NCBI RefSeq assembly: GCF_026004055.1
Contig: NZ_BPIJ01000002.1
Span: 1,803-65,802 of the forward strand
Origin: Meiothermus sp.
Lineage (GTDB): Bacteria > Deinococcota > Deinococci > Deinococcales > Thermaceae
Direction: 5' to 3'
DNA: 64,000 bases
The notes under the pieces are model-generated. The model was not told the origin of the DNA, did no database searches, and worked only from the letters and a program-made list of their open reading frames with translations. Below, one piece after another: positions 31,343 to 45,780 of this stretch (within the stretch, counting starts at the first letter, position 1; every line of letters begins with the position of its first letter). A program made the position numbers and the translations under genes.

Positions 31343-31354
31343 GCATCTAGGCTG

Positions 31355-31383
31355 AATATACAGGGGTATATACGGTTTGTCAA
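31355..31383 (-). promoter_or_regulatory. Promoter of the aminotransferase gene
   Basis: On the minus strand TTGACA (consensus), a 17-base spacer and TATATT. The palindrome ATATAC-CCCT-GTATAT overlaps spacer and -10 and may be an operator. Confidence 0.75.
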
Positions 31384-43158: not shown

Positions 43159-45117
43159 TCACTTCCTCGCCTCCACTCGCCCCTTCATCTCCTCAATCAA
43201 GGCCGCTATCCCCAGCGTGCGCTGTTCCTTCACGTGCCGCTCGCGCACATTCACCGCACCGGCCTCGAGCTCCTTGTCGCCCACTACCAAAATAAGCGGG
43301 ATTTTCTGCAGCTCGGCATCGCGGATTTTGGCGTTCATGCGCTCGGGGCGGCTGTCTATCTCCACCCGCAGCTTGTTTTTACGCATCTGAGCGGCCACCT
43401 GCTGGGCGTACTCCAGGTGCCGATCCGCAATGGGCACAATCACGGCCTGGATGGGGGAAAGCCACAGGGGGAAGTCGCCGGCGGTGTGCTCGAGGTAGAA
43501 CGCAAAAAAGCGGTCGAAGCTGCCCATGACGGCGCGGTGGATGCAGACCGGGGTTTCCTTCTCGCCTTTTTCGTTGGTGAACTCCAAGCCAAACCGCTCG
43601 GGCACGATAAAGTCGAGCTGGTTGGTGGCGATGGTGTCCTCCTTGCCCAGCACGCTGCGAATCTGCACGTCCAGCTTGGGGCCGTAGAAGGTGGCCTCGC
43701 CGATGCCCTCCACGTATTTGGCGCCGGTTTGCTCGAGGGCTGCCCGGATGGCCGCAATCGAGTCGCGCCAGTTGTCGTTTTCTTCGCCAAACTTTTCGGG
43801 GTTGTGCTCAAAGTCGGGGAGTGAGAGGCGGAACCAGTAGTCCGTGATGCCAAAATCCTGGTACACCTCGTCAATAAGCTGGATAACCTTGATGAATTCC
43901 TCGGTAACCTGGGCCCTCGAGCAGTAAATGTGGGCGTCGTTCTGGGTGAAGCCCCGCGCCCGCGTGAGGCCCGTAAGGGTGCCCGAGAGCTCGAAGCGGT
44001 AGACCGTGCCAAATTCGGCCAGCCGCAGGGGCAGGTCGCGGTAGCTCTTGGGCCGCGCCTTGTAGATCATGTGGTGGTGCGGGCAGTTCATGGGCTTGAG
44101 GTAGTACTCCTCGCCCTCGATCTCGATGGGGGCGTACATGTCATCTTTGTAATAGGGCAGGTGGCCCGAGGTGTAGTAAAGCCTGGCATTGGCAATATGG
44201 GGCGTATAGACGTAGTGGTAGCCGTGCTCCTGCTCTTTGTGGTACATGTAGTCTTCCATCTGCCGACGGATAAAAGCGCCCCGGGGCAGCCACAGCGGCA
44301 AACCCTTGCCCACCTCCTCGGATATGGTGAAAAGGTCGAGCTCGGCCCCCAGTTTGCGGTGGTCACGGCGCTTGGCCTCCTCCTGCTGCCAGAGGTAGTG
44401 CTCGAGCTCTTCCTTGGTGCGGAAGGCAATGCCGTAGATGCGCTGGAGCATGGGGCGGCTCGAGTCGCCCCGCCAGTAGGCCCCGGCAATGCCGGTTAGC
44501 TTAAAGTAGGGAGGAATGCGGCCCGTGCTGGGTACGTGGGGCCCCCGGCACAGGTCGGTAAAGCCAAACTGCTCGTCGCCCTGCTTGTAAAAGCTCAGCT
44601 CCTCGTGCTCGGGCAGGTCTTGAATCAGCTCGGTCTTGTAGGGGTCAATACCGGCGTAGCGTTTCAGGGCCTCCTCGCGTGGCAGCACAAAGCGCTCCAG
44701 GGGCAGGTTGGCCGCTACAATCCGGCGCATCTTCTCTTCAATTAAGGGCAGGTCTTCTTCGCGAATGGGCTCGGGGGCGTCGATGTCGTAGTAGAAGCCA
44801 TTCTCGATCACCGGGCCAATGGCCAGCTTCACATCCTCGGGTTTGAATCCACGCTCGAGATATAGTTCGCGCACCGCTTGGGCCAGCACGTGAGCCAGGG
44901 TATGGCGGAAAAGCTGCACATACTCGGGGTCTTTCTCGGTCAAAATGCGGATTTCGGCCCCATCGGGTAGGGGCTTGAGCAGGTCGTAAAGCTCTCCATT
45001 GACAATAGCCCCAATGGCCGCTTTGGCCAACCCAGGGCCAATGGCTTTGGCCGCATCGGCGGCGGTGGCACCGGGGGGTAGCTCCAGGTTTCGTCCGTCG
45101 GGAAGCACTGCGGTCAT
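43159..45117 (-). CDS. thrS: Threonine--tRNA ligase
   Basis: 652 residues. N-terminal TGS-like domain (MTAVLPDGRNLELPPGATA), editing domain with HTLAHVLAQAV, class II catalytic core (ELDLFTISEEVGKGLPLWLPRGAFIRRQMEDY; the zinc-site segment LKPMNCPHHHMIYK; FELSGTLTGLTRARGFTQNDAHIYC), and the anticodon-binding domain (VIVPIADRHLEYAQQVAAQM, MNAKIRDAELQKIPLILVVGDKE). GAGGTAAAT precedes the ATG. It is transcribed from its own promoter through an attenuator-like leader. Confidence 0.97.
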   Translation of the reverse strand: MTAVLPDGRNLELPPGATAADAAKAIGPGLAKAAIGAIVNGELYDLLKPLPDGAEIRILTEKDPEYVQLFRHTLAHVLAQAVRELYLERGFKPEDVKLAIGPVIENGFYYDIDAPEPIREEDLPLIEEKMRRIVAANLPLERFVLPREEALKRYAGIDPYKTELIQDLPEHEELSFYKQGDEQFGFTDLCRGPHVPSTGRIPPYFKLTGIAGAYWRGDSSRPMLQRIYGIAFRTKEELEHYLWQQEEAKRRDHRKLGAELDLFTISEEVGKGLPLWLPRGAFIRRQMEDYMYHKEQEHGYHYVYTPHIANARLYYTSGHLPYYKDDMYAPIEIEGEEYYLKPMNCPHHHMIYKARPKSYRDLPLRLAEFGTVYRFELSGTLTGLTRARGFTQNDAHIYCSRAQVTEEFIKVIQLIDEVYQDFGITDYWFRLSLPDFEHNPEKFGEENDNWRDSIAAIRAALEQTGAKYVEGIGEATFYGPKLDVQIRSVLGKEDTIATNQLDFIVPERFGLEFTNEKGEKETPVCIHRAVMGSFDRFFAFYLEHTAGDFPLWLSPIQAVIVPIADRHLEYAQQVAAQMRKNKLRVEIDSRPERMNAKIRDAELQKIPLILVVGDKELEAGAVNVRERHVKEQRTLGIAALIEEMKGRVEARK

Positions 45118-45226
45118 ATTTACCTCAAAAAAAACCCCGGCCCTTCCACTAGGAGCCGGGAGAACCTCTATTGCCTTAGGCTAGAAGTTCCCCCCAGGTC
45201 TAGTAGTCAGCCGAGACCTCATTCCG
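45118..45226 (-). promoter_or_regulatory. thrS leader with terminator/antiterminator
   Basis: On the minus strand: hairpin AGGTCT / AGACCT (45196-45219), then GGGGGAAC / GTTCTCCC (45158-45194), then the terminator CCCGGC / GCCGGG (45136-45160) followed by eight T at 45127-45134, just before the ribosome binding site. The second hairpin's 3' arm shares three bases with the terminator's 5' arm, so the two cannot form together. No T-box sequence is present. Confidence 0.65.
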
Positions 45227-45232
45227 ACTAGA

Positions 45233-45261
45233 AGTGTACGTCTGCACCAAGCGTGCGTCAA
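45233..45261 (-). promoter_or_regulatory. Promoter of thrS
   Basis: On the minus strand TTGACG, a 17-base spacer and TACACT. Confidence 0.75.
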
Positions 45262-45478: not shown

Positions 45479-45506
45479 CTTGACATTTTGTCAAGAGGTT
45501 TACAAC
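45479..45506 (+). promoter_or_regulatory. Promoter-like site with palindrome
   Basis: TTGACA (45480-45485) lies inside the inverted repeat CTTGACA / TGTCAAG; TACAAC follows after 15 bases. The -10 spacing is short, so activity is uncertain. Confidence 0.35.
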
Positions 45507-45546
45507 CGTTATTTCTTTGAATATCGTTACGTGCAGGAGGAAGGCC

Positions 45547-45579
45547 ATGAAAAGAGCAGGCGGTATCTGGGCCGACTAA
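45547..45579 (+). CDS. Possible 10-residue peptide or small RNA
   Basis: ATG 45547 has a perfect AGGAGG six bases upstream, and encodes MKRAGGIWAD then TAA. A terminator follows 33 bases later. The arrangement copies that of the 29-residue gene at 1.7 kb (strong ribosome site, tiny frame, own terminator). It may be a leader-type peptide or simply a small RNA with a chance frame. Confidence 0.35.
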   Translation: MKRAGGIWAD

Positions 45580-45611
45580 TTTCAAATACCGGCGATTGGC
45601 TAACCAGTTTC

Positions 45612-45637
45612 GCAGGGGTGTTACATCCCTGCGTTTT
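45612..45637 (+). terminator. Rho-independent terminator
   Basis: GCAGGG / CCCTGC stem with a 9-base loop, followed by GTTTTT. Confidence 0.8.
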
Positions 45638-45780
45638 TCGTTACTTAAACAAACCTTGCTTGCCTGGCCCTATGCAGGAAACAACTCCCGCAAACTCGCA
45701 AACAGATCGGATTGCCAGAACACTCGCCCCAAAAACAGGCCTATGTGGCTATTCTGGAGTAACCGATTCTACTTTTTCCG

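Follow-up and report, generated by a model that had tools for sequence, protein, structure and literature searches.

Judging from sequence comparison and folding models, the leader of the threonyl-tRNA synthetase gene (thrS) of a Meiothermus sp. very probably works by ribosome-mediated transcription attenuation, with the charging of tRNA-Thr as the signal sensed. The gene lies on the minus strand of the stretch of DNA analyzed here, 64,000 nucleotides of contig NZ_BPIJ01000002.1 (assembly GCF_026004055.1), which we call the window. In its parts, their conservation, the identity of its codons and its geometry in folding calculations, the leader has what such an attenuator comprises: a 5' open reading frame (ORF) with tandem cognate codons, an intrinsic terminator, an antiterminator exclusive with it, and a spacing of stall site and stop codon that fits the two structures.

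Layout of the thrS leader

The features of the leader are listed in Table 1. A preliminary description of this region had reported a promoter, two hairpins and a terminator with eight T directly before the ribosome site, and all of these are present on the minus strand upstream of thrS. It had also held that a GGGGGAAC/GTTCTCCC hairpin and the terminator exclude each other by three shared bases, and the two stems do have CCC at 45160-45158 in common. This hairpin, the antiterminator of Table 1, has a calculated energy of -22 kcal/mol at 37°C, compared to -17 kcal/mol for the terminator hairpin. The leader ORF reads ATG AGG TCT CGG CTG ACT ACT AGA CCT GGG GGG AAC TTC TAG, 13 codons in a transcribed leader of about 105 nt. 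A TTG at 45261 was considered as the start of a longer ORF and rejected, since it is part of the -35 box.

Table 1. Features of the thrS leader, with window coordinates
Feature	Position	Strand	Basis
Promoter: -35 TTGACG (45261-45256), 17-nt spacer, -10 TACACT (45238-45233)	45233..45261	minus	sequence
Leader ORF MRSRLTTRPGGNF and stop; start 10 nt past the -10 hexamer, nearly leaderless	45181..45222	minus	frame, ATG and stop kept in 21 aligned leaders
Hairpin 1, AGGTCT...AGACCT, Thr codons in the loop region	45196..45219	minus	folding and 21-leader alignment
Tandem Thr codons ACT ACT, proposed stall site	45202..45207	minus	Thr1 in 21/21, Thr2 in 18/21
Antiterminator GGGGGAACTTCTA.../...TAGAGGTTCTCCC; 5' arm formed by the final leader-ORF codons and stop	45158..45194	minus	folding, covariation
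Intrinsic terminator hairpin CCCGGCTC...GGGCCGGG	45135..45160	minus	folding, alignment
T8 run of the terminator	45127..45134	minus	sequence, alignment
thrS ribosome-binding site GAGG	45123..45126	minus	by inspection
thrS, encoding the 652-aa threonyl-tRNA synthetase; gene under the proposed control; ATG at 45117	43159..45117	minus	ORF and phylum-wide thrS set

A generic terminator scan did not pick up the terminator of the thrS leader, and its yield of terminators did not exceed the chance rate, so the weight for this terminator rests on its conservation and not on single-sequence statistics. Searches of the thrS site against the Rfam leader families gave only chance-level matches to unrelated families.

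thrS genes are commonly under T-box control in Firmicutes, and the preliminary description had pointed out that no T-box motif is present here, concluding that another sensor must act. Searches with the T-box model (RF00230) bear out the first point, with no match at the thrS site even at E values up to 10. The second stands as far as some other sensor is concerned; the sensor itself was left open, with ThrRS or tRNA suggested for assay, and the leader ORF with its ACT ACT codons running into the antiterminator had been missed. That the leader might instead be a divergent T-box, with uncharged tRNA-Thr as its direct ligand, is a thought suggested by the frequency of thrS among T-box targets in Firmicutes and by T-boxes elsewhere in the same genome: three T-box-like leaders lie before ileS, glyS and a NUDIX-hydrolase gene (names assigned by sequence inspection), with E values of 4e-19 to 9e-14, below the Rfam cut-off. 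The T-box matches of this genome sit at genes other than thrS, however, and the transcribed thrS leader is too short for the 219 positions of the model, which leaves this reading a vanishingly small probability.

Elsewhere in the phylum, on contig C190 of genome G075 (L231), a divergent thrS is immediately preceded by a T-box that scores above the Rfam cut-off. We set this case aside as evidence, since identity of the encoded ThrRS is no more than 51% and this metagenome-assembled genome may have acquired the contig from a foreign source.

Conservation of the ORF and its threonine codons

The thrS genes of 111 genomes of the phylum were collected, and we inspected the upstream regions for most of them. 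The 28 likely leader carriers that were compared comprise 18 Meiothermus, 2 Calidithermus, 2 members of a sister genus and 6 members of a second family (f4); the alignment of structure and codons uses the 21 Thermaceae leaders. An ORF with at least one Thr codon, starting 9 to 10 nt after a TANNNT hexamer, is present in 27 of the 28 leaders, which are related by descent and do not represent 28 independent events. The terminator/antiterminator leader observed in the preliminary description is confirmed; what decides the matter is the conservation of its antiterminator and terminator stems in the 21 leaders, given below. Carriers include M. hypogaeus, M. taiwanensis, M. granaticius, Calidithermus roseus and C. 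chliarophilus.

The leader peptides share little besides threonine. Examples are MRSRQTTRPGGNF, MIWLCTTRRRGNF, MFRLATTTRRREDF, MRRPASTTTTWGRGGS and MAPFVTTTR; Thr-Thr (or TTT or TTTT) recurs across Meiothermus, Calidithermus, the sister genus and the second family in peptides that are otherwise different, and its chance occurrence within 12 codons is 2 to 3% per leader. Among the 21 aligned leaders the first Thr codon is ACT, ACG or ACC, always threonine, and the residues of codons 2 to 5 change freely while threonine is kept. In the Calidithermus leaders an in-frame ACC insertion gives a third Thr. ACT makes up 23 of the 42 leader Thr codons, compared to 6% of the Thr codons in the long ORFs of the window. 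Three Meiothermus leaders have a single Thr codon left, and one Meiothermus genome (G033, L025) has lost the leader ORF and kept the promoter and terminator. The thrS of G033 and of two other genomes is only 66% identical to that of the window, compared to 82 to 94% in the rest of the genus.

Thermus thrS has no such leader: a -10 sequence TATAGT lies about 7 nt before the ATG, and the gene looks leaderless. Nor was the leader ORF present in the upstream regions read from the other genomes of the second family (genus g14). A Thr-rich ORF, TTRT(P)RG, precedes thrS in family f3 and in a small number of other genomes (L021-L024, L028, L145, L148 and L163). We set these ORFs apart from the Meiothermus-type family, since their layout differs; CTCGAG repeats in some of them could mask the Shine-Dalgarno sequence (SD), possibly giving translational attenuation of thrS.

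Conservation of the stems

In the 21-leader alignment, 95.2% of the antiterminator cells are paired, with three doubly changed pairs and a covariation score above that of all shuffles; when its partner is slid by one base, pairing falls to 64 to 75%. The preliminary description had looked to covariation among the thrS leaders of Meiothermus and Thermus, and the Meiothermus half of that expectation holds, with the antiterminator both kept and covarying, while the Thermus half falls away for want of a leader there. The terminator is paired in 97% of cells and followed by a T run in every aligned leader, and being nearly invariant it yields no covariation. Hairpin 1 is weaker than the other two stems, with 70% of cells paired and 13 cells in which both sides have changed. 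When the 21 leaders are made into a covariance model, the model retrieves all of them at E values of 1e-13 to 1e-26, as it must by construction, and does not find the G033 leader. The two hairpins lie next to each other in genus g13 of the second family (G010-G014) and have no paired bases in common in the folds; a mutually exclusive antiterminator is not evident there from folding.

The same comparison bears on whether a protein, ThrRS or another, could control termination by binding a leader that mimics the anticodon arm of tRNA-Thr. Autoregulation of thrS through operator mimicry is established in E. coli, and the terminator loops here often contain G-U-rich stretches such as GTAGTTG. These loops vary in sequence and length, however, while the leaders retain an ORF that starts at a fixed position and contains Thr codons. 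The leader has no conspicuous domain resembling an anticodon arm, and protein binding would leave unexplained why the leaders of other genes, described below, carry codons for their own amino acids. Control by such a protein is thus highly improbable.

Ribosome position and the proposed switch

The transcription start, the translation of the ORF, the stalling and the response to threonine, all of which we infer, would fit together as follows. RNA polymerase would start a few bases before the leader ATG, and a ribosome would follow on the ORF. With ample Thr-tRNA the ribosome would reach the TAG and cover the 5' arm of the antiterminator, leaving the CCCGGC segment free, so that the terminator could form and thrS would be off. 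With scarce Thr-tRNA it would stall with the first ACT in the A site, its leading edge ending where the antiterminator begins; the antiterminator would then form and deprive the terminator of the CCC at its base, and transcription would continue into thrS.

We modeled the ribosome by masking the RNA to 12 nt past the start of the A-site codon and computing the pairing of the remainder at equilibrium. The mean probability that the base of the terminator forms, over the 21 leaders at 37°C, is 0.00 for the naked RNA, 0.23 for a stall at the first Thr codon, 0.91 for a stall at the second and 0.96 at the stop codon. At 60°C the corresponding values are 0.01, 0.45, 0.91 and 0.97, and the discrimination between ribosome states is weaker. 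The predicted state thus flips between a stall at the first Thr codon and completion of the ORF. Since a stall at the second Thr codon lets the terminator form in this equilibrium model, the switch would have to act at the first Thr codon or kinetically. The order of cotranscriptional folding, antiterminator first, should favor read-through further.

In most species the predicted fold of the naked leader is a single long hairpin that pairs the ORF with the loop and the 3' arm of the terminator. Because this hairpin consumes the terminator, read-through is the predicted default for a ribosome-free leader. Shuffling the 5' part weakens the naked fold (mean z of -2.5; mean z of -1.8 for the duplex), a result we regard as suggestive. 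Both observations could be turned into a different account of the conservation, in which selection acts not on the ORF but on base pairs between the leader and the 3' arm of the terminator, the Thr codons being kept because their ACUAC can pair with a GUAG of the terminator loop. Such selection would not account for the survival of threonine through synonymous changes, among them an ACT-to-ACG change in G043 that costs a long-range pair, or for the in-frame Thr insertion in Calidithermus. Thr runs are found in the second family as well, where g13 lacks the naked long-hairpin fold, and the leaders of other genes again have their own cognate codons. We consider pairing as the selected property very unlikely, and return to attenuation by a translating ribosome.

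Similar leaders before other genes

Further leaders of this kind were sought with promoter patterns and with the covariance model of the thrS leader. The model matches one site in 18 Thermus genomes, at E values of 8e-4 to 2e-8 (best, 1.9e-8). In all seven genomes inspected (L186-L192) this site is upstream of homocitrate synthase and has a Lys-Lys leader ORF, e.g., MLALEKKLGRRGVG; further Lys-Lys ORFs before homocitrate synthase were found through the model at L193-L195, L198 and L204. The model also matches upstream of lysJ in Calidithermus (MFASSRKPVQREVG) and of leuS in G001, and Arg-Lys leaders precede lysJ-type aminotransferase genes (L196, L197 and L200-L202).

In the window's own genome, a promoter-plus-ATG pattern occurs at 24 places, compared to 5 in a reversed control; the pattern also yields ordinary genes and chance sites, and places were counted as candidates only if they combined a T run with a short ORF whose codons match the gene. 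Six near-leaderless leaders with such codons, each with a T run shortly after, are MILSGRLTLALVGLVIIGPMGGWV before ilvB, MVWYTTT before asd, MRIRTPRSYKWHHQRWWRGWP before trpB, MFWTDNNY before aspS (aspartate-tRNA(Asn) ligase), MQTSRGFASQSARFFGYFYWPGVPVRLA before the gene for DAHP synthase and MILSAKKSSAGGLV before a homocitrate-synthase-like gene (L184, L207, L210, L211, L212 and L219). The asd leader has two adjacent hairpins with no pairs in common.

We tentatively entertain, at somewhat less than even chances, the idea that Deinococcota use one recodable attenuator chassis in which the cognate codons are swapped: Thr-Thr for thrS, Lys-Lys for homocitrate synthase and Arg-Lys for lysJ. The chassis would consist of a nearly leaderless ORF ending in the antiterminator, read-through as the default and a terminator abutting the SD; the covariance-model matches are compatible with common descent and with convergence alike.

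Two further elements were observed in the window. On the minus strand, 31344-31383 and about 120 nt downstream (L221) show the promoter-plus-ATG pattern, an ORF MRFSARAIL, a T run and a PLP-type aminotransferase-like gene, and in the naked leader the ORF pairs with the terminator region. On the plus strand, at 45480-45640, an SD-led ORF MKRAGGIWAD follows a TTGACA-like sequence and is followed by a terminator-like hairpin (CGCAGGGGTGTTACATCCCTGCG, T5), possibly marking a small transcript that adjoins the thrS leader.

Comparison with known systems

Attenuation by leader peptides is an established mechanism; its use at Meiothermus thrS appears to be undescribed in the literature searched. A survey of attenuators published in 2010 placed the leader-peptide systems then known only in Proteobacteria and Actinobacteria and added a his leader in bacilli (PMC2965389). 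We found no paper on leader-peptide attenuators in Deinococcota in the open-access literature, which leaves most subscription journals outside. For the homocitrate-synthase leader of Thermus, targeted literature searches gave nothing relevant and a broader one nothing by title; regulation of the gene by lysine in T. thermophilus has reportedly been a subject of study.

An attenuator at thrS would account for control of the gene in a group with neither a T-box nor E. coli-type autorepression evident there, and would mean that a single genome employs both T-boxes, which sense tRNA, and attenuators that sense the ribosome. It suggests that leader-peptide attenuators are more widespread in Deinococcota, and the leader ORFs, which appear nearly leaderless, would naturally report on leaderless initiation that is coupled to transcription in a thermophilic bacterium.

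The short ORF with tandem cognate codons, the exclusive antiterminator and terminator and the proposed use of ribosome position as the switch are shared with the enterobacterial trp, his and thr attenuators. The Meiothermus ORF, in contrast, is nearly leaderless and its end forms the 5' arm of the antiterminator, and hairpin 1 is no competitor of the antiterminator; untranslated RNA is therefore predicted to read through and not, as in the classical trp case, to terminate. The leader also differs in controlling a synthetase gene, in belonging to Deinococcota and in matching no Rfam leader family.

The nearest precedent is thrL upstream of thrS in Streptomyces lividans, which likewise encodes a leaderless leader peptide with Thr-Thr (MKRVRPFLETTPGFVPAR); it has one hairpin and no U-rich stretch, and termination there is unclear (PMC8079986). 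In the Meiothermus leader, by contrast, the terminator is strong and ends in T8, and an antiterminator competes with it; the peptides are unrelated by eye.

In E. coli, thrS expression is likewise controlled, through a translational operator at which bound ThrRS represses translation, whereas the Meiothermus layout is one of transcription attenuation with a leader ORF. With T-box leaders (RF00230) it would share control of a synthetase by tRNA charging through a terminator and an antiterminator; it lacks their stem I and T-box sequence, and its proposed sensor is the translating ribosome.
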